DNA of 34,151 nucleotides from Nitrospirota bacterium. GTDB taxonomy: Bacteria; Nitrospirota; Thermodesulfovibrionia; Thermodesulfovibrionales; SM23-35. Below, one piece after another: positions 4,006 through 29,297 of the stretch (position 1 is its first letter; each line of letters begins with the position of its first letter). The position numbers were made by a program, and so were the translations under genes. The notes under the pieces are model-generated. The model did not search any database, had not been told where the DNA came from, and saw only the letters and a list, made by a program, of their open reading frames with translations. The DNA lies in assembly GCA_013388455.1 (NCBI GenBank), contig JACAFF010000019.1, positions 1 through 34,151 on the forward strand, in the 5' to 3' direction.

Positions 4006-5246
4006 GTGAGAAATATCTTAATCAAATAAAAGAAAAGGCTGAACAAGCAAAAGAAAAAAAAGCGGTTTTTGGTCCGGATATTGATCTGTCGATTTATTCA
4101 CAACATATAGAGAGAGGAAAGATAGAGAGTCTCGAAAGTCTCTCATATCAGGCCAAAGAAGCAGCAATTCTAACCGGAATCAATCTAAAAGAAGAATCAC
4201 GCTCAGGTTCATATTTACAGATTGATCAGTCTGTGGTTTATGAGAGTCTTAATAAAGCATACGAGGGACAACTCGAAATCATGAGCACAACAGATGCTTT
4301 ATTAAAATATGAATGGATGGAAAAGTATTTCTGGAAATCCGTCCCTATTGATCAAGATAAATATACGGCTCAGGTAGCTCTTAATATGACGCATGGTTAT
4401 TTCATAAGGGTTTTCCCGGATCAGAAACCAAAATATCCTGTGCAATCTTGTTTGCTTGTTGCAGAAAACTATGTAAGTCAGAATGTGCATAATATTATAA
4501 TCGTTGAGGAAGGAGCTGAACTTCAGGTCATAACCGGCTGTACATTATCAAAGAACAATGCTGAAGGAATACATCTCGGGATTTCTGAATTTTATGTAAA
4601 AAAGGGAGGCAGGTTGTTTTTCACGATGATCCATAACTGGGCTGAAAATTTTCATGTGAGACCCAGGACATGGGCTGTTATAGAGGATGATGCATCATTT
4701 GTAAGCAATTATGTTCTCCTCAAACCTGTCAAATCCATTCAGGCCTTCCCCGTAGCTTATCTTAAAGGAGACAGAGCTTCAGCAAAGTTTAATACAGTTG
4801 TATATGGTCTTAAAAACTCATATATTGATCTCGGCTCAAGAATAATCCTCGAAGGAAAAGATACAAGGGGTGAATCCATTGCAAGAACAATAGCAGCTGA
4901 CGAGAGCACTGTCTACTCAAGGGGAGATCTTATAGCAAAGACAAAAGATTATTGTCTGGCTCATCTTGATTGCAGGGGCATTCTATTCTCTGAAAGGGCT
5001 AAGATTTATGCTATCCCGCAGCTACTTTCAGAAGGTGCAACGAAAGCTGAATTGTCCCATGAGGCTTCTATTGGTCCTATAGCCGAAGAACAGGTTGAAT
5101 ACTTAATGTCAAGAGGTATAGCGAGGGAAGATGCAGTATCTGCAATCACTTCAGGATTTCTTAATCTGAATATCCCTTATATCCCGGATTTTCTCGATAA
5201 GAATATTAAGGAGGTTATAGCAGCTACCGCCAAAGAGGCCCTTTAA
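3996..5246 (+). CDS. sufB: SufB/SufD-family Fe-S scaffold protein
   Basis: The 416-residue protein has a helical N-terminus and a long beta-helix core, with the family end pattern ECRG-like LDCRGILFS, then PQLLSEGATKAELSHEASIG and EEQVEYLMSRGI, followed by a C-terminal helical segment. The SHEAS-IG and Q..YL-SRG patterns are diagnostic of SufB/SufD. It forms the complex with SufC that builds Fe-S clusters. No sufD, sufS, sufE or sufU follows, so this is the two-gene layout typical of archaea and several deep anaerobic bacteria (the SUF-like minimal system). It is shorter than E. coli SufB (about 495 residues), consistent with that type. Confidence 0.9.
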   Translation: MPISEKYLNQIKEKAEQAKEKKAVFGPDIDLSIYSQHIERGKIESLESLSYQAKEAAILTGINLKEESRSGSYLQIDQSVVYESLNKAYEGQLEIMSTTDALLKYEWMEKYFWKSVPIDQDKYTAQVALNMTHGYFIRVFPDQKPKYPVQSCLLVAENYVSQNVHNIIIVEEGAELQVITGCTLSKNNAEGIHLGISEFYVKKGGRLFFTMIHNWAENFHVRPRTWAVIEDDASFVSNYVLLKPVKSIQAFPVAYLKGDRASAKFNTVVYGLKNSYIDLGSRIILEGKDTRGESIARTIAADESTVYSRGDLIAKTKDYCLAHLDCRGILFSERAKIYAIPQLLSEGATKAELSHEASIGPIAEEQVEYLMSRGIAREDAVSAITSGFLNLNIPYIPDFLDKNIKEVIAATAKEAL

Positions 5247-5256
5247 TTTAAATTTG

Positions 5257-5310
5257 GTTGATAGACATGCTAAGATAGAAAAAATTTTTTCTATATATAT
5301 CTAAATCAAC
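5257..5310. repeat. Long AT-rich inverted repeat between sufB and the DUF1015 gene
   Basis: A perfect 20-base palindrome (5275-5294, six A then six T at the centre flanked by ATAG and CTAT) is nested in outer arms GTTGAT (5257-5262) and ATCAAC (5305-5310). It could be a weak terminator, an mRNA-stabilising stem-loop or an operator for the next gene. Confidence 0.5.
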
Positions 5311-5322
5311 GGAATCTGTATC

Positions 5323-6561
5323 ATGGCAAAAGTAATCCCGTTCAAGGGAATTCTTTACAATACGTCTAAAGTTTCAATAGAGGATGTCTTAGCTCCTCCA
5401 TACGATATTATTACGCCTGAATATAGGGAAGCGTTATACATGCAGAGCCCATATAATATTGTAAGAATAGATTTTGGTAAGGAAGAAATAGGAGATAATG
5501 AAATAGAAAATAAATACTTAAGAGCCAGAAGATATTTTGATGAATGGATGAAAGAAGGCATTTTCATTCAAAGTAAAAAACCTTCTTTCTATGTATATGA
5601 AATGTCTTACAATATTCATTCTGAAACAAAGAAACTTATTGGATTTCTCGGCCTTGTAAAACTCGAAGAACTGGGTAAAGGAAGTATCTACCCTCATGAG
5701 TGTACACATGCTAAACCGAAACTTGACAGGTTAAACCTTATGAGATCTTGTGAAGCTAACACAAGTCCCATATTCTCATTATATAAGAGTTCAGAAAAAG
5801 GTATCTCAGACGTGCTGTTGGGTATCTCCCATGAAAAACCTTATATACAAGACATAGATATCTCCGGGGACGTTCACAGGCTTTGGGAGATTAATGATAG
5901 TGAGAAGATAAAGATAATTCAAAAAGAACTTAAGAACAAAGCTGTCTTTATTGCTGATGGACATCACAGATATGAAACAGCACTTGAGTTTTATAAAGAA
6001 AAAAATATTAATAAAATGTCGTCAATAGATGAACCATATGGTTATGTTCTTATGTTTCTGGCGAATATGCTTAGTGAAGGCATAACAATTTTACCGACGC
6101 ACAGATTGTTGAAAGAAATCCCCGAGGATTTGAACAAGATGTTACCACAGTATTTTGATATCGAACCTGTAAAAGATAATTTTGATATAAGAAAAAGACT
6201 ATATGATAAAAGGAGAGTTTTTGGTTTTTTTTACAAGGGGAGCAAGGAGTGGTATGTCCTCCATTACAAGGAAGGGGTTTTATCAGAAATACATCCTGAC
6301 CTGAGGGAAATTGATGTTATAGTACTCCACGAGTTGATACTGAAAAAATTATTTCACACTGCTGATATTGGATATGATATGGATATTAAGAGCACCATCG
6401 ATAAAGTTCAAAATGGAGAATTTGTTGCTGCCTTTTTCCTTAACCCCACAAGGGTTGAAGATATAGAAAAGGCAGCTCTTTTATCATTCAGGATGCCTCC
6501 AAAATCAACATATTTTTATCCAAAACTTTTGACAGGTATGGTTTTAAATAGATGGGGGTAA
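5323..6561 (+). CDS. DUF1015 family protein
   Basis: The 412-residue protein starts with VIPFKGILYN and has LAPPYDIITPE (about 24-34), NIVRIDFGKEE, YPHECTHAKPKLDR and the central IADGHHRYETALEF (about 209-222), all hallmarks of DUF1015, and the length is typical. The family is widespread in anaerobes and has no proven biochemical function; the HHRYE motif suggests a catalytic or metal or phosphate site, but this is inference. It lies between the suf genes and gap-pgk on the same strand. The ATG has only a weak GGAA site ahead of it. Confidence 0.9.
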   Translation: MAKVIPFKGILYNTSKVSIEDVLAPPYDIITPEYREALYMQSPYNIVRIDFGKEEIGDNEIENKYLRARRYFDEWMKEGIFIQSKKPSFYVYEMSYNIHSETKKLIGFLGLVKLEELGKGSIYPHECTHAKPKLDRLNLMRSCEANTSPIFSLYKSSEKGISDVLLGISHEKPYIQDIDISGDVHRLWEINDSEKIKIIQKELKNKAVFIADGHHRYETALEFYKEKNINKMSSIDEPYGYVLMFLANMLSEGITILPTHRLLKEIPEDLNKMLPQYFDIEPVKDNFDIRKRLYDKRRVFGFFYKGSKEWYVLHYKEGVLSEIHPDLREIDVIVLHELILKKLFHTADIGYDMDIKSTIDKVQNGEFVAAFFLNPTRVEDIEKAALLSFRMPPKSTYFYPKLLTGMVLNRWG

Positions 6562-20075: not shown

Positions 20076-21953
20076 CTAATTTCCCCTTGCCTTTTGCTTT
20101 AAAACGAGATAAGCATTGCAGAAATTGGCTACAAGGTCATTTTGATCAAGTTCGAGAGCAGCATCTATCATTTTTTTTGCGTCGTTTTCCCGCCCTTTCA
20201 TCATGAAGGCAAAAGCAAGACTTGAATAAGGTGTAGAAATAGTAGGTCTTTGACTGACAGCCGGCATAGCCTCAAAGATTATTTCGTCGTACACTAATGT
20301 TTTCGGTAATTTGTATTGTTTTATAATATCAGAATACTTTTCAACATCTTTTATGAAAATAAGCATAGTTCCATCAAAATATATTAGAGACCATTCATCA
20401 TCCTGAATAAGTCTGAGAACGATTGGATAAAGCTCTTTTGTAAAATGTGAACATGCTTCATGGACTATGAGATTAATATTATATTTTTCAAGCAATTTTT
20501 TCCACAGTGGCTTATAATTCTTTGTGATAGGGACATTATTTCGAGAAAAAACTTCGATTCTTCCCATCTCATCTGGAACAAGAGATATTATGGCATTTGT
20601 AAGGCCTACATAAGTTGGCTGTTTATAATCATCAAGTGTATAAGCTATTACATCAGTATCATGGACAGCTTCTAAGCTGATAAAACGAGTATCATTGAAA
20701 ACTTTATAATAAGGATAAAGCCTCCATATAAAATAACTCCCTTTATTATGTTGATTAAACATATTGGCATCTATCTTGTTAGCGAGAAGAAAACTTGCTG
20801 CACCTTCTGGATATCTTGATGTATCAATTCCAAAAAGTTTCGAATAGTTTTTCAACCCAAAGACAATAGTAAATGTGAAAAATATTAGCAGTAAAAAAAA
20901 CATTATTGAATTTACCCTTAACTTTTTTATTGAATCTATGTTACTGAAAAACGTGTATTTTCTTGAAACAGGAATTGAAATTGCAACAAAAAAGGGGATA
21001 TATCTGATAGAGGTGAAAGCAGCAACAGAGGAAAAGATAATAAGAGAAAGGGAAGTTATATCTAAAGATTTTGACCTGAAAAAATTTAATGTTATAACAA
21101 TAATTATATACCCAAAAATAAAAAAGAATGAAAGAATAGAAATTCTATTCCCATAGTGAACCCCCATCTCCTTTATAGGACTTATATATTCTCTATTTTC
21201 ACTATATAACCAATTCGCATAAGTATGAGAGTTCAAGGCTTCCAGCAGTTGCCCATTAATACAGGGGTTAATATAAGAAAATACTATCGCAAGGAATATT
21301 GTAATAAGTAATGTAAGAACTGCTTTTTTTTCTAAAGGCTGACCAAAAGTAGACTTGCTTATAAGTATTTTAAAAGATTCTGTTAATGCATAAATCAAGA
21401 TAGCAGCGATACCAAAAACAAAGCCGGCGTGCATGTTAGCCCAAATGAGCATAAGAGGTGGAATAAAGAACAGGGGCATTTTTGAAGCTGGATTTTCCCT
21501 GAATCTTTCAAGGAGCAAGATCAGGATAATCATAAAGAGAAAGGAAAACGATTGAGGTCTGTCAAGTTTGGATGCTTGAAGCATAATCGCAATAATAGAT
21601 GCTAAAAATAAAGCTTTATAAAAGCCTTTCTTTCGAAGAAAAAACCAGATAATAAAAACAAATGATGAAAAAATAATAGCCCTAAGCAGAATGATACCAG
21701 CTGAACCAAAAAGAGAGTAGAGTTTATAATATATAATTTGAGTAATCCAGTACTGCGAAAGTGTAAATTTTTCCCTATCAGTCTTAATCCCTTCCCCATA
21801 GAAAGAAAAGGGGTCATCTGATGGTATCGCTCTATGCTGATAAATATATTCTCCTGTTTTAAGATGAAAAGGGAAGTCAGGACAAACAATTGGCCCTAAA
21901 AAATTAATAAATACTGCTAAGCAAAAGAGGCCTATTAATATCTTTTCTCTCAC
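20076..21953 (-). CDS. GT-C-like polytopic membrane protein with periplasmic tail, paralogue A
   Basis: The 625-residue protein has an N-terminal helix, then VCPDFPFHLKTGEYIYQH (about 23-40), in the first outside loop where GT-C enzymes hold the catalytic acid, about eleven helices to residue 370, and a soluble part ending in a TPR-like helix pair (PYSSLAFAFMMKGRENDAKKMIDAALELD). It is clearly paralogous to the next gene upstream: SQYWITQIIYY, SAGIILLRA, WANMHAGF and the IWRLYPYYKVFNDTR segment have direct counterparts. I infer a membrane glycosyltransferase. Context suggests a role with the adjacent pilins. It lies 21 bases after its paralogue. Confidence 0.75.
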   Translation of the reverse strand: MREKILIGLFCLAVFINFLGPIVCPDFPFHLKTGEYIYQHRAIPSDDPFSFYGEGIKTDREKFTLSQYWITQIIYYKLYSLFGSAGIILLRAIIFSSFVFIIWFFLRKKGFYKALFLASIIAIMLQASKLDRPQSFSFLFMIILILLLERFRENPASKMPLFFIPPLMLIWANMHAGFVFGIAAILIYALTESFKILISKSTFGQPLEKKAVLTLLITIFLAIVFSYINPCINGQLLEALNSHTYANWLYSENREYISPIKEMGVHYGNRISILSFFFIFGYIIIVITLNFFRSKSLDITSLSLIIFSSVAAFTSIRYIPFFVAISIPVSRKYTFFSNIDSIKKLRVNSIMFFLLLIFFTFTIVFGLKNYSKLFGIDTSRYPEGAASFLLANKIDANMFNQHNKGSYFIWRLYPYYKVFNDTRFISLEAVHDTDVIAYTLDDYKQPTYVGLTNAIISLVPDEMGRIEVFSRNNVPITKNYKPLWKKLLEKYNINLIVHEACSHFTKELYPIVLRLIQDDEWSLIYFDGTMLIFIKDVEKYSDIIKQYKLPKTLVYDEIIFEAMPAVSQRPTISTPYSSLAFAFMMKGRENDAKKMIDAALELDQNDLVANFCNAYLVLKQKARGN

Positions 21954-21974: not shown

Positions 21975-23834
21975 TTAATCACTTTTTGGTTGCTCTTTTT
22001 TTGTTTTTATCTCTAATTCAATCTGAGCAATCTTTCTTTGAATACTTTTATCATCCGGCATCCTTTCCAGAGCATATTTATATGCCTTTAGAGCATCTTC
22101 TGATCTATGCATTCTATAAAAAACATCACCAAGCGATATCAATGAGCGAGGATTTGTTTTATTGTTTAGTGCTCGACTGGCTCCTTGATATATTATTGTA
22201 TTATAAACTTCTTCAGTTGGAATTCGGTTTTTTTTAATAATATCATTGTTGCGTAAATTGTTTTTTACAAATATTACACTCATTTCGTCACTATATACAG
22301 GAATCCAGTCATCACTTTCGATAAGTTCGAAAATTAATGGATAAATTTGTGAAATTGGATTTACAACCGATAGCACTATATAGTTTATATCGTAATGATT
22401 AATCAGAACTTTCCACAAAGGGTTATTTGACTTTCCTTCGATGCTTTTGTCAACATCACTCATCATCAAAGCATTTATAATCCAGCCGTATTCCATCTTT
22501 ACAGAGATATTTAGTGCACGTGTATCTATAAAAGTTTTTTTATATGGATAGAGTCTCCATGATATATATCCACCATAACCATAGTCATTAAACATGTTGC
22601 CTGAAAGATTGTTTTTTTCAATAAAATTGACTGCTCCAACTGGAACTGAATAATTATTCGCAACTTCAAATTGAAATCCGTCATGTCCATATATATTACC
22701 TGCAAAAAAGGCTACTGATGAAAATAATGCAACGAATGACAATATAGTTATAATCTTTTGATAATCGAATTCTGAAAATCTTTTTTTTATTAAACTTTTC
22801 ATCAAAATATCAAACTCATTACCTAAAATCATGGAACCTAAAATCACATAGTAAATCATAAATCTGCGTGCTGAAATACTCGGAATAAGAAATATTAAAA
22901 GCACAATGAGATGGGATAAATATATTTTCTTCCATCGTAGAAACAGGATTATTGGAAAGAGAAAAACAAGAATTACATATTCATATGGTAATGGATATAT
23001 TTTTGATTTATAAAAAATAAATGGGGAGAAATATTCCTGAATATTCTCATGTATTATTTTATATTTAAAAGGGATATTTATTGAAATAAATAATGCATCC
23101 CAGCCGGTTGGGTTGATAAAAGAGACAGCGATTGAAAGGATTGAGACGATATAGAATATAAAGATTTCCTGCTTTGTATAATCACTCTTTTTTAGGAAAA
23201 AATTAATTCCTTCTCCAAACATAAAAGCAGTGATAATACCTATTCCGATGATGAACCCTCCGTGCAAATTGCACCAAAAAAGCATCAGGGGAATGAGCAA
23301 TACTATCCGCTTTTTCCTATTTCTTCTGAAATCTTCTAAGAGAAAAAATATCAGAGCAGTAAAAAGTATCGTGAAGAGAACCGGACGTTCCCCTGTAGTT
23401 TTAATAGTAGCTATGAAAACAATAAAAGTAAATAAAAATGCAATTGGAAAACTTACAGACCATCGCTTGAGTTGCCAGAAAACTATTATAAGTAGTATAA
23501 GAAGAAGGAGACTTCTTAGTATGATAATGCCTGCTGTGCCTGAAGAATTGTAGATTAAATAAAAGATAATTTGACTGAGCCAGTATTGTTTTAAAATGAA
23601 GTTTTCCCACTCAGGAAATGGATTTTTATTTTCTTCGAGTATTGAAGTAAAGCAAAATGGATCTTTTTCAGGCAGGGTTCCTGAAGTTACTATATATCTA
23701 CCATTTGCAATATGCCACCAGAAATCACTGTCCCATAAAGGAGTGGAAAGATAATTAAGTGCGAATGATAAAAAAAGAAAAATTATTGCTGAAAGTTTCA
23801 ATATTTTAAGAAAGGCAGAATTATCAGAATTCAT
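21975..23834 (-). CDS. GT-C-like polytopic membrane protein with TPR-like tail, paralogue B
   Basis: The 619-residue protein matches its downstream neighbour along its length: DSDFWWHIANGRYIV (about 35-49) in the first outer loop, KQYWLSQIIFY, TAGIIILRS, WCNLHGGF, and ISWRLYPYKKTFIDTR before a soluble tail that ends in a tetratricopeptide-like repeat (SLISLGDVFYRMHRSEDALKAYKYAL). The D-x-D-WWH motif in the first loop suits a GT-C-fold transferase. The gene begins only 15 bases after the pilin at 23.85 kb, which argues for co-expression and for the pilin as a possible acceptor. No named family recognised; function is inferred. Confidence 0.75.
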   Translation of the reverse strand: MNSDNSAFLKILKLSAIIFLFLSFALNYLSTPLWDSDFWWHIANGRYIVTSGTLPEKDPFCFTSILEENKNPFPEWENFILKQYWLSQIIFYLIYNSSGTAGIIILRSLLLLILLIIVFWQLKRWSVSFPIAFLFTFIVFIATIKTTGERPVLFTILFTALIFFLLEDFRRNRKKRIVLLIPLMLFWCNLHGGFIIGIGIITAFMFGEGINFFLKKSDYTKQEIFIFYIVSILSIAVSFINPTGWDALFISINIPFKYKIIHENIQEYFSPFIFYKSKIYPLPYEYVILVFLFPIILFLRWKKIYLSHLIVLLIFLIPSISARRFMIYYVILGSMILGNEFDILMKSLIKKRFSEFDYQKIITILSFVALFSSVAFFAGNIYGHDGFQFEVANNYSVPVGAVNFIEKNNLSGNMFNDYGYGGYISWRLYPYKKTFIDTRALNISVKMEYGWIINALMMSDVDKSIEGKSNNPLWKVLINHYDINYIVLSVVNPISQIYPLIFELIESDDWIPVYSDEMSVIFVKNNLRNNDIIKKNRIPTEEVYNTIIYQGASRALNNKTNPRSLISLGDVFYRMHRSEDALKAYKYALERMPDDKSIQRKIAQIELEIKTKKEQPKSD

Positions 23835-23849
23835 AAATGAAGAGACTTT

Positions 23850-24359
23850 TTAATCAGCGGAGATAGTTTTTCTATACATTGAGTTTCCTTGTTTATCTCT
23901 TGCTTCGAGGATTATCTGTCCTGAATTAGCAGAATGATTACATGAAATCCTGCCATTAGTTGTTGCATTGCTTGATGCAGCAGTAGTCCAGAGGCTCGTT
24001 GCTGTTGGATTCCATGGAGAATATTCTGGATTCATATTCCAACGTGCCTCAATATAGCGGGAGCATAGCTGATTTGCACCAGTTAAATCCTGTGCAAGGT
24101 CAGTATTTGTTGCATCATTACTATCAATTATGCCATTCCCATTTGAATCTACTTCTCTCAAAGTACTATTCCCCCTTCTTGCTGACTGTAGCCAACCCTG
24201 AATTTCAGCTTCTGCTGATACAACAGCCCTCTGAACAGAGCCCTTTCTTCCTCTTTCCTGCATTCCAATATAACCAGGAATTGCAATTGCTGAAATTATA
24301 CCTATTATAGCTACAACAATTAGTAATTCAATAAGTGTGAACCCTTGCTGTCTTTTCAT
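23850..24359 (-). CDS. Type IV pilin with EF-hand-like loop (second copy)
   Basis: The 169-residue prepilin has a short leader MKRQQG then FTLIELLIVVAIIGIISAIA, with cleavage after G6, Phe1 and Glu5 intact. Then follow GYIGMQERGRKGSVQRAVVSAEAEIQGWLQSARRG, a DSNGNGIIDSND loop (71-82) that fits the 12-residue EF-hand calcium pattern, and a cysteine pair C99/C140. It is a close paralogue of the pilin immediately upstream; the first 60-70 residues are almost identical while the C-terminal parts differ. A 38-base palindrome separates the two genes, so this copy may be transcribed by read-through. Its ribosome site is weak. Confidence 0.92.
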   Translation of the reverse strand: MKRQQGFTLIELLIVVAIIGIISAIAIPGYIGMQERGRKGSVQRAVVSAEAEIQGWLQSARRGNSTLREVDSNGNGIIDSNDATNTDLAQDLTGANQLCSRYIEARWNMNPEYSPWNPTATSLWTTAASSNATTNGRISCNHSANSGQIILEARDKQGNSMYRKTISAD

Positions 24360-24427: not shown

Positions 24428-24958
24428 TTAGTCAGCAGCAATAACTTTTCTATAAAGCTGTGTTCCCGTTTTGTCATATGCTGTAAGGATAACTTGTGGG
24501 TCGGTTGTGTTATGCACACAGCTAATACGGCCATTGGCAGTTGCATTAGTTGCAGCTGTTGTCCACAAGCTTTCTATCGCATTCCATGGTGAATATTCGG
24601 GATTCTGTGCAAATCTTGCAGAGATATAATCAGAGCATATTCCGTTGGCTGTAGTTAAGTCCCCTGCAAGGTCAGAATTTGTCAGATCATTACTGTCAAC
24701 TATGCCGTTTCCATTTGAATCAACTTCACGAAGTGTGCTTCCACCCCTTCTTGCTGACTGTAGCCAACCTTGAATTTCAGCTTCTGCAGCTACGGCAGCC
24801 CTCTGGACAGAGCCCTTTCTTCCTCTTTCCTGCATTCCAATATAACCAGGAATTGCAATTGCTGCCAGAATTCCGATGATTGCTACGACAATTAGAAGTT
24901 CAATGAGGGTGAACCCTCTTTGCTCTCCTTTTTTCATTTTGTAAACAGTTTTAAACAT
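24428..24958 (-). CDS. pilA: Major type IV pilin (PilA-like) with EF-hand-like loop
   Basis: The 176-residue prepilin has a 15-residue leader ending in R-G, then FTLIELLIVVAIIGILAAIA, with Phe1 and Glu5 of the mature protein intact. The globular part contains the 12-residue loop DSNGNGIVDSND (80-91), with Asp/Asn at 1, 3, 5, 9 and 12, Gly at 6 and Val at 8, as in EF-hand or dockerin calcium loops, and a probable disulphide C108-C147. ATG 24958 is preceded by a GGGGG tract at 4 bases; the internal ATG 24937 has none. The own sigma-54-type promoter, long leader and strong terminator suggest this is the major pilin subunit assembled into fibres. Confidence 0.92.
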   Translation of the reverse strand: MFKTVYKMKKGEQRGFTLIELLIVVAIIGILAAIAIPGYIGMQERGRKGSVQRAAVAAEAEIQGWLQSARRGGSTLREVDSNGNGIVDSNDLTNSDLAGDLTTANGICSDYISARFAQNPEYSPWNAIESLWTTAATNATANGRISCVHNTTDPQVILTAYDKTGTQLYRKVIAAD

Positions 24959-25268: not shown

Positions 25269-25703
25269 TTACTCCCAACTTGTGATGTCGGCGTTTTCAC
25301 CTTCACCACCTGGTGAACCATCAACACCATAAGATATGAGGTCATAATCACCATGGCTTCCAGGTGATTCATAATGGTAGGGATGTCCCCATGGATCATT
25401 TGGGACGGCCTTTTTCAAATACGGTCCATCCCAATTTTGTATCCCTGGATTGGTAACAAGGGCGTTTAATCCCTCTGATGTAGTTGGATAACGTCCAGTA
25501 TCAAGTTTGAATTGGTCAAGCGCCTGCCCAAGGAGTTCTATCTGTGTTTTTGCAGCTGATTGCTTACCTTTACCAACTTTTGGTATTAATCTTGGGAAAA
25601 CAAGGGCTGCTAACATTCCAAGAATAACCATTACAACAATTAACTCGACGAGTGTGAATCCATTTGTATTTTTTATAAGCGATTTCTTTTTTAAATAATC
25701 CAT
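25269..25703 (-). CDS. gspG: Type II secretion major pseudopilin GspG-like protein
   Basis: The 144-residue protein has a prepilin leader cut after G15, then FTLVELIVVMVILGMLAALVFPR, and the GspG signature LGQALDQFKLDTGRYPTTSEGLNALV, YLKKAVPNDPWGHPYHY and a C-terminal YGVDGSPGGEGENADI loop, which binds calcium in GspG. Length and layout are normal. It would form the periplasmic pseudopilus of a type II secretion system, yet no other gsp genes are in the window, so it is isolated or has been recruited to the pilus locus. GGAGGAAAT before the ATG is a strong ribosome site. Confidence 0.92.
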   Translation of the reverse strand: MDYLKKKSLIKNTNGFTLVELIVVMVILGMLAALVFPRLIPKVGKGKQSAAKTQIELLGQALDQFKLDTGRYPTTSEGLNALVTNPGIQNWDGPYLKKAVPNDPWGHPYHYESPGSHGDYDLISYGVDGSPGGEGENADITSWE

Positions 25704-26871: not shown

Positions 26872-27486
26872 ATGTCGAAGATTAAAAGGGCAATTATAAG
26901 TGTGTTTAATAAAAAGGATATTATTGAATTTGCAAAAGAAATTCAAGCAATGGGTTTTGAAATACTATCAACTGGTGGAACAGCAAAGACATTGAAAGAT
27001 GCAGGTGTAATTGTTAAAGAAGTATCCGAATATACAGGTTTCCCAGAAATGCTTGATGGAAGGGTAAAGACACTTCATCCAAGAATACACGGAGGTTTGC
27101 TTTCAAGAAGGAGTAATATCAAGGATATGGAGGAAATTGACAAACACGGCATTAATACAATAGATATGCTGGTTGTAAACCTTTATCCTTTTGAAGAGAC
27201 AATATCGAAGCCCGGAGTCACATTACAAGAGGCTATTGAAAACATTGATATAGGCGGGCCTGCAATGTTGCGGTCAGCATCTAAAAACTTTCAAGACGTT
27301 ATTGTTATTGTTGACCCATCAGATTATAGAAAAGTTATTGAAGAACTTAAAAGGCTTGGTGGTGATATAAGCTACGAAATGAGATTAGAACTTGCGCAAA
27401 AGGTATTCAAACATACTTCGAGATATGATGGATTAATTGCTGATTTTCTTGCAAAAGAACTGAAACAACAAAAGAATGAAACTTAA
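26872..27486 (+). CDS. purH: IMP cyclohydrolase (PurH N-terminal domain only)
   Basis: The 204-residue protein corresponds to the MGS-like IMP cyclohydrolase half of Pur[20 protein letters not shown], the phosphate-binding [47 protein letters not shown] and [16 protein letters not shown] are all intact. It closes FAICAR to IMP, the last step of purine synthesis. Standard PurH is about 520 residues; here the AICAR transformylase half is absent and the stop falls at the domain boundary, with unrelated coding sequence following, so this is a real single-domain gene and not a frameshift. A strong AAAGGAGG site precedes the ATG. The transformylation must come from another gene (PurP or a separate domain). 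Confidence 0.92.
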
Positions 27487-27515: not shown

Positions 27516-28772
27516 ATGAAAGTGCTTGTCATCGGTGAGAGTGCCAAGGAACATGCGATCGTATGGAAATTATCACAGAGTAAATATGTCGATAAAATTT
27601 ACTGTTGTCCTGGGAATGCTGGAATCGCAGAAATCGCTGAATGTGTTGATTTCAGTCCAAGAAATTTTGATGCTTTAACCGATTTTATCAAATATGAGTG
27701 GATTGATCTCACCATAATTGGTGACGAAGAACAGTCTGCACATGGAATTGCTGATATATTGGAAAGAGAAGGGTGTAAGGTTTTTGGAGCAAATAAAATC
27801 TCTGCACAATTGAGAACAAGAAGATCTGCTGCTAAAAACTTTCTTAAAGTTCACGGGATTTTGACCCCTGAATACAAGGTCTTTAATTCTTACTCCCTTG
27901 CTGAAGATTATATAAGGTTAAAAGGGGCCCCTATAGTTATAAAGACTGATAATTGCTTAGATAGAAATATTGTTTATACTGCTTTTTCTGTGGATGAAGC
28001 AATGTCTATTCTTAGAACTATGATGAATGATGGAAATCATGATGATACCAGCAAGAAAATAATTCTGGAAGAATATATTAAAGGGAAGCATGCAACTTTT
28101 ACATTTCTGACTGATGGAAATATTGCACTCCCATTTGTAAGTCTATATAAATATTTTTGCTTTAATGCGACCGATGCTAATCAAATGTCAGATGGTATCG
28201 GATCTTATTGCCCTTTTCATTTAGAGCCCAATAATCTGTTGAGTATTCATAAAATTATCGATTTATTTTCAAGAGCACTTAAAACAGAAGGGTTCCGATA
28301 TAAAGGACTGTGTTCATTAGAACTAATTATTACTGATAGACCTTATGTGGTAGAAGTTAATACATGTATAGGTGAGTTAGATGTCCAGACTATACTGCCA
28401 AGGCTGAAAACAGATTTCGTTAATATTGTATTATCTGTAATAAATGATAATATAAATGAATTGAATATAGAATGGTATAAAAAGATTTCTGCGGGAGTTG
28501 TGCTATACTCCGAAAATATCGATATAAACTTTCAAAAAGGTTTTATAATAAAGGGACTTGAACAGGTCAAAAAGATAACAGATACTCATTTATTTCACAA
28601 TAATACCAAATTTCAGAATGGCAATATTACAACATGTGGAGGAAGGGTGATGAGTGTAATTGCAATCGGGGATAGATTTGAAGATGCAAAGAAAAGGATT
28701 TATACAGCAATAGAGAATATAGGTTTCGAAAAAATGCATTATATAAAAGACATTGGTCTTGTCCCCAAATAA
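27516..28772 (+). CDS. Divergent PurD-like ATP-grasp protein, active-site motifs degenerate
   Basis: The 418 residues follow the PurD (phosphoribosylamine-glycine ligase) outline: MKVLVIGESAKEHAIVWKL at the start, CCPGNAGIAEIAE, IDLTIIGDEEQSAHGIADIL, and a C-terminal TCGGRVMSVIAIGDRFEDAK and HYIKDIG. Yet family motifs are altered: GSGGREHA is GESAKEHA, ADGLAAGKGV is TDNCLDRNIV, the QDHKR segment reads LYKYF, NTGGMGAYSP is MSDGIGSYCP and FNCRFGDPETQ is VNTCIGELDVQ. The gene is full length without frameshifts. It sits between purH and purE, so a purine-related role, changed substrate or regulatory pseudoenzyme is possible. The family is secure but catalytic activity is doubtful. Ribosome site weak (AAGG 11 bases ahead). 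Confidence 0.8.
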   Translation: MKVLVIGESAKEHAIVWKLSQSKYVDKIYCCPGNAGIAEIAECVDFSPRNFDALTDFIKYEWIDLTIIGDEEQSAHGIADILEREGCKVFGANKISAQLRTRRSAAKNFLKVHGILTPEYKVFNSYSLAEDYIRLKGAPIVIKTDNCLDRNIVYTAFSVDEAMSILRTMMNDGNHDDTSKKIILEEYIKGKHATFTFLTDGNIALPFVSLYKYFCFNATDANQMSDGIGSYCPFHLEPNNLLSIHKIIDLFSRALKTEGFRYKGLCSLELIITDRPYVVEVNTCIGELDVQTILPRLKTDFVNIVLSVINDNINELNIEWYKKISAGVVLYSENIDINFQKGFIIKGLEQVKKITDTHLFHNNTKFQNGNITTCGGRVMSVIAIGDRFEDAKKRIYTAIENIGFEKMHYIKDIGLVPK

Positions 28773-28799
28773 TGCATTTTTGTGTGTAGAGGAGACAAA

Positions 28800-29297
28800 A
28801 TGAAACCAAGGGTATTAATTATTGTGGGTAGCGATTCTGATCTTACGATTATGGAAAATGCTGGAAAAACACTCGAGGAACTTGACATTGCTTATGAAAT
28901 TACTATTGCGTCTGCACATAGAACACCGGAACGTGTTATGATTTTAGCTTCTCAGGCTGAAGAAAAAGGCATCGAGGTAATCATTACTGGTGCAGGTATG
29001 GCAGCCCATCTGGCAGGAATTGTAGCAGCACACACAATTTTGCCTGTAATAGGAGTGCCAATAGATTCCTCCCCTCTCAAAGGTATAGATTCGCTTCTAT
29101 CAATTGTTCAGATGCCAGTTGGAGTGCCTGTTGCAACAGTGGCTATTGGCAAGGCAGGAGCGAAAAATGCTGCGATTCTTTCAGCTCAAATAATCGGAAG
29201 GAAAGACCCTGTTGTTGCCGCAAAACTCAAGACTTTAAAAAAGAAGATGACCGAAGAGGTAGAGAATAAAGCAAAGATGCTCAGAAAGACTAAATAA
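28800..29297 (+). CDS. purE: N5-carboxyaminoimidazole ribonucleotide mutase (PurE class I)
   Basis: The 165-residue protein has GSDSDLTIMENA (10-21), IASAHRTPERV (37-47) with the catalytic histidine, ITGAGMAAHLAGIVAAHT and PVIGVPIDSS, all diagnostic of PurE. It rearranges N5-CAIR to CAIR in purine synthesis. I start at ATG 28800, which has AGAGGAG with good spacing, in place of an in-frame GTG at 28782 that lacks one. It follows the PurD-like gene by 27 bases and is 3 bases ahead of the DUF89 gene, consistent with an operon. Confidence 0.95.
   Translation: MKPRVLIIVGSDSDLTIMENAGKTLEELDIAYEITIASAHRTPERVMILASQAEEKGIEVIITGAGMAAHLAGIVAAHTILPVIGVPIDSSPLKGIDSLLSIVQMPVGVPVATVAIGKAGAKNAAILSAQIIGRKDPVVAAKLKTLKKKMTEEVENKAKMLRKTK

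Follow-up and report, generated by a model that had tools for sequence, protein, structure and literature searches.

A catalytically eroded PurD homologue in the purine gene cluster of a Nitrospirota family is probably a pseudoenzyme retained by selection

The window, i.e., the entire 34,151-nucleotide stretch of Nitrospirota DNA analyzed here (contig JACAFF010000019.1, positions 1 to 34,151), contains a purine gene cluster on the forward strand, in which a native purD homologue designated copy A (27516-28772) lies between purH (26872-27486) and purE (28782-29297), the latter encoding N5-CAIR mutase. The original prediction had named purH and purE as the flanking genes, and while this is correct for purE, the upstream gene encodes only the IMP-cyclohydrolase part of PurH (204 aa). 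A divergent AICAR-transformylase of ~430 aa is encoded on a separate contig (G000:C30:54185-55333; L010). The same purH split occurs in several other families of the order. In nearly all members of the window's family, purE is followed by a gene for an ARMT1-like damage-control phosphatase (PF01937; 29301-30146 in the window), the product of which scores below the cut-offs of the NCBIfam damage-control models that it matches. Further upstream, glycosyltransferase and sugar-epimerase-like genes follow one another, and among them are two adjacent genes for large membrane proteins that are related to each other and carry TPR-like stretches at the C terminus (20076-21953 and 21975-23834). Two type IV pilin-like proteins, very much alike and each with a GFTLIELLIVVAIIGI leader, are encoded in tandem at 23850-24359 and 24428-24958, and a third pseudopilin-like ORF lies close by (25269-25703).

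Copy A is, as had been claimed, a full-length and intact gene: an uninterrupted reading frame with an ATG start and no internal stop, encoding 418 aa. Its product matches the purD model TIGR00877 over its full length with 298 bits (cut-off 288) and possesses all three GARS Pfam domains (GARS_N, GARS_A and GARS_C), and is thus homologous to PurD from end to end. The residues through which PurD contacts ATP, magnesium and glycine have been described as E100, K103, K143, E185, E192, D212, K214, R284 and E289 (PMC8880213, where the last two are R287 and E292); the published numbering equals that of the window up to residue 214, and the last two residues were mapped to positions 284 and 289 via an alignment with PDB 2yw2. 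Only K143 and E185 of these nine survive in copy A, the others being substituted (E100R, K103R, E192H, D212K, K214F, R284C and E289D), so that it lacks most of the ATP, magnesium and glycine residues of a PurD enzyme. The surrounding motifs have changed likewise: the N-terminal GSGGREHA reads GESAKEHA; the remains of the ATP-binding glycine-rich loop (residues 143-153; 27942-27974) read KTDNCLDRNIV in place of KADGLAAGKGV; the former DHKR site (residues 212-215; 28149-28160) is now KYFC, the QDHKR segment as a whole having become YKYFC with loss of the glycine ligand D212 and of K214; and the former GGMG site (residues 226-229; 28191-28202) is now DGIG. The metal/glycine motif (residues 280-291; 28353-28388) has changed from EFNCRFGDPETQ to EVNTCIGELDVQ, which includes R284C and E289D. 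All segments listed as changed in the original prediction are therefore altered, although the metal motif is partly left, as E280 and N282, which are missing in most eroded relatives, are retained in the window copy.

An AlphaFold2 model of copy A, built on 65 sequences, reached a pLDDT of 89 and a pTM of 0.90, with pLDDT values below 50 for residues 173-178 and 217-223, and its best match in the PDB is the GAR synthetase of Aquifex aeolicus (2yw2; TM 0.92, Z 52.4). As the underlying alignment consists mostly of canonical PurD sequences, the model indicates that copy A is compatible with this fold and does not amount to proof of it; a first model built on 13 eroded sequences alone gave a pLDDT of 54.5 and was set aside.

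The window genome (2.1 Mb, 99.4% complete) encodes one other full PurD, designated copy B (G000:C1:68946-70253; L008:10947-12254; 489 bits), which carries all nine residues, in agreement with the expectation that a normal purD would be present elsewhere; a search for such a gene thus found one, and copy A is not the only purD of this organism. Copy B is situated in a folate/methylene-THF gene cluster, among genes that we take, from their sequences and families, to be folD, a metV-like gene, a DUF2520-like gene and the gene for methylene-THF reductase. Since PurF is also encoded in this genome, the organism should produce phosphoribosylamine and needs a GAR synthetase, and we infer from its intact residues that copy B is the working one. 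Of note, copy B deviates at 15 of 109 positions that are conserved in 95% of other PurD sequences (e.g., G7D, E12G and H361A in window numbering), and it carries an insertion of ~15 aa in its C-terminal domain. Among 296 genomes of the phylum, matches to copy B of at least 750 bits are confined to the window's family, the best match elsewhere scoring 397 bits. The B copies group together (100/100) and, via a long stem of 1.45, branch among PurD sequences from outside the Nitrospirota, while an AU test did not reject their joining the Nitrospirota PurD (p 0.28); copy B may therefore be either foreign or an ancient duplicate.

The family was sampled with 20 genomes from 15 genera, all of which appear to be draft assemblies. 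An eroded copy A is present in 18 of the 20 genomes and 14 of the 15 genera, with the copies of G009 and G015 cut by contig ends, and it is accompanied by a whole or cut copy B in 17 of these 18 genomes; the exception is G001, where no copy B was found, perhaps owing to assembly incompleteness. Genome G005 possesses a canonical copy A together with a full-length purH and without copy B, while in G016 (73% complete) copy B is present and copy A was not found. In the sampled remainder of the order, aligned orthologues of copy A have canonical motifs and are nearly always the sole PurD, copy B being absent. The eroded copies form a single clade (100/100) on long branches, the sister of which is the canonical G005 sequence (99/95), followed by HGW-Nitrospira-1, and this nesting within native PurD indicates that copy A is native and vertically inherited. 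Furthermore, the eroded gene shares its neighbourhood with the canonical purD of related families. Wherever the contig suffices, the order and strand of radC, the N-terminal part of purH, copy A, purE, the ARMT1-like phosphatase gene and cysS are kept within the family with few exceptions (e.g., G006, without an ARMT1 match). The suggestion that the gene might form a conserved clade beside purH and purE is accordingly confirmed, its position between the two being retained wherever the contig reaches.

The pattern of erosion across the family is informative with regard to what was lost and when. All nine residues are kept in 17 of 17 canonical orthologues of copy A and in 15 of 15 full-length B copies, whereas E100, D212 and R284 are missing from each of the 16 full-length eroded copies. 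Erosion is mildest in G004, which keeps six of the nine residues, and in G001 and G010, which keep five, and these members might retain residual traces of binding. Polar residues that are invariant in the eroded copies are E12, H13, S22, N34, D200, D300, S332, H361 and T364. A ligase of the ATP-grasp type acting on a new substrate had been considered in the original prediction, and the large retention of K143 (14 of 16) and E185 (13 of 16), together with the intact predicted fold, would suit such an enzyme. That reading is nevertheless disfavoured and appears most improbable, because ATP and glycine residues (the loop, D212, R284 and E100) have been lost and are replaced differently from lineage to lineage, as is seen for the substitutes in the glycine-rich loop, while the ATP-grasp part has gained few new conserved residues and no replacement catalytic set is conserved. 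The loss of key residues in common, followed by separate drift in each lineage, fits an early inactivation and not a new common active site. A pseudoenzyme is defined as an enzyme homologue without the conserved catalytic motifs of that enzyme (PMC10211241), a description which applies to copy A.

Selection on copy A was assessed from four close pairs of eroded sequences, which returned dN/dS values of 0.162, 0.173, 0.174 and 0.226 (Fisher p 4e-9, 2e-27, 5e-5 and 5e-14, respectively); the same measure gave 0.04-0.08 for copy B, 0.04-0.12 for canonical copy A, and 0.05-0.12 for purE and the N-terminal part of purH. The eroded gene is thus relaxed approximately two- to fourfold and yet far from neutral. 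A full-length open frame is found in every eroded copy not cut by a contig end, across 14 genera, so that neither mark of a pseudogene, i.e., a broken frame or neutral amino-acid change, is observed, and the assertion that the gene is too regular for a pseudogene is borne out (p at most 5e-5 for dN/dS of 0.16-0.23). These values, in combination with retention in 14 genera, are those of a protein maintained by selection. The constraint is unevenly distributed: identity among eroded versus canonical copies amounts to 0.65 versus 0.74 in residues 1-100, 0.53 versus 0.75 in residues 101-190, 0.41 versus 0.72 in residues 191-320, and 0.45 versus 0.68 in residues 321-418, the loss being least in residues 1-100 (p 2e-7) and almost nil in residues 1-60. 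These first 60 codons (27516-27695), the N-terminal part of the GARS_N domain, are conserved nearly as in working PurD, and they seem, judging by this conservation, to be the part that carries the retained function. A cause at the RNA or DNA level for the conserved 5' end was considered and rejected, as fourfold third-base differences are 0.67 in codons 1-60 and 0.62-0.71 in other regions; synonymous change is ordinary there, and the constraint therefore acts on the protein. An Rfam search of the window returned four tRNAs and no other match.

Selection on the ATP-grasp part of copy A is clearly relaxed, and copy A could be decaying slowly. A rival reading treats the gene as a remnant in decay whose loss is still to come, being either a slow pseudogene or a frame kept solely for the translation of purE. 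Its dN/dS, two to four times that of its neighbours, and its long branches would be expected of such a remnant, and the adjacent transformylase half of purH has already been deleted, no remnant of it being detected in the purH-purD gap of the eroded lineages. This last observation also provides a local control, given that redundant sequence at this locus does get deleted while the eroded purD has remained whole. We consider the leftover explanation improbable, since dN/dS is far below 1 in each close pair, all uncut copies retain their frame across 14 genera, constraint is concentrated on residues 1-60, and coupling to purE would demand an open frame and not a conserved protein.

A natural replacement experiment appears to have taken place in G008. 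On contig C106 of this genome, copy B lies in its standard neighbourhood (folD, an FAD/Fe-S protein gene, metV, DUF2520, copy B, MTHFR and PilZ), but lacks its first ~235-245 codons, and downstream of the cut gene are an IS200-like transposase gene (PF01797) and a foreign, canonical purD, the closest affinity of which in the tree is to family f2. The cut copy B, the canonical purD and the transposase gene occupy positions 735-2587 and 4801-5358 of G008:C106 (L173), apparently a second purD replacement under way. The eroded copy A of G008 is intact, on contig C103. Provided that contig C106 is not chimeric, the assembly having 6% contamination, a canonical PurD has replaced copy B, which supports the assignment of copy B as GAR synthetase, while the persistence of copy A without a full copy B weakens the case for an obligate A-B complex.

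The first of these points bears on the converse assignment, whereby copy A would be a weak, divergent GAR synthetase and copy B would have another function. Copy A does exceed the TIGR00877 cut-off, and copy B is odd at its 15 otherwise conserved positions and in its insertion; even so, this reading is very unlikely, considering that E100, D212 and R284 are absent from all 16 full-length eroded copies, that copy B keeps all nine residues, and that in G008 it was copy B rather than copy A that was lost on arrival of the canonical purD.

The second point concerns the possibility that copies A and B jointly constitute a two-gene GAR synthetase, in which copy B would perform the ATP-grasp chemistry and the dead copy A would activate or complete it in a prozyme-like manner, or would handle phosphoribosylamine. 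The tight association of the two genes within the family (17 of 18 genomes) is in keeping with this, as is the precedent of dead paralogues that activate living ones (PMC5201418, PMC3663545). In addition, of the 15 conserved positions altered in copy B, nine are kept by copy A in all members, versus only 15 of the remaining 94 (p 0.0006, for a pattern noticed before it was tested). This complementary retention is only suggestive of a division of labour and was downgraded as a heterodimer signature, because it is also expected if copy A keeps residues needed for the fold and copy B those needed for catalysis; moreover, G008 retains copy A despite a truncated copy B, and G001 possesses copy A with no copy B found. 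A joint enzyme is thus rather unlikely, though a somewhat better prospect than a decaying leftover.

The evidence, which is genomic throughout, is best accommodated by copy A being a PurD pseudoenzyme retained by selection across the clade, a conclusion that we consider highly probable; the pseudoenzyme option of the original prediction is thereby supported by the survival of only two of nine catalytic residues, an intact second PurD and purifying selection, and the regulator proposed there would be one possible form of it. ATP, magnesium and glycine residues disappeared from the native purD in the stem of the family, after the G005 lineage had diverged, and copy B, with its full catalytic set, presumably performs GAR synthesis. 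The remaining task of copy A would need the fold and the N-terminal domain, and no ATP. A candidate is a docking or handover function at an early stage of the purine pathway, such as the transfer of unstable phosphoribosylamine from PurF to PurD or a tether to neighbours, for instance PurE or PurH; other partners are also conceivable. By analogy with PurF and PurD of Escherichia coli, docking or handover is judged the likeliest form of such a role, albeit tentatively.

Pseudoenzymes are a known kind of protein, of which the present case is a PurD example with unusually good natural controls: a core metabolic enzyme was displaced and yet kept, catalytically dead, family-wide, with an intact sister in G005 and a re-replacement in G008. 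An open-access literature search found no PurD pseudoenzyme. The case makes it testable whether the PurD body performs non-catalytic work, e.g., accepting phosphoribosylamine from PurF. It also exposes an annotation trap, in that the dead copy A scores above the cut-off of the curated PurD model and would be annotated as functional. A two-gene GAR synthetase, if true, would be an arrangement without description for the GAR step, as far as searched.

Among known systems, the trypanosomatid prozymes, dead copies that bind and activate their partners (the AdoMetDC prozyme, PMC5201418, and the dead paralogue of deoxyhypusine synthase, PMC3663545), resemble copy A in that a catalytically dead relative is retained alongside a living one; they differ in that binding to the partner is known there, whereas copy A persists in G008 next to a truncated copy B. 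For PurF and PurD of E. coli, kinetic evidence of phosphoribosylamine channelling and a docking model have been reported, with no stable complex (Rudolph and Stubbe 1995, reviewed in PMC10912719). If a PurD body has a spare, non-catalytic function, docking or handover is therefore the most natural possibility; the E. coli work concerns an active PurD, no inactive PurD being reported there (PMC10912719), while copy A is eroded. The closest comparison is with PurD itself, i.e., the GAR synthetases of A. aeolicus (2yw2) and E. coli (1gso), to which copy A is homologous throughout, with the same three domains and the same predicted fold, and from which it differs in that seven of the nine ATP, magnesium and glycine residues are replaced and that the genome encodes another PurD in which all nine are intact.
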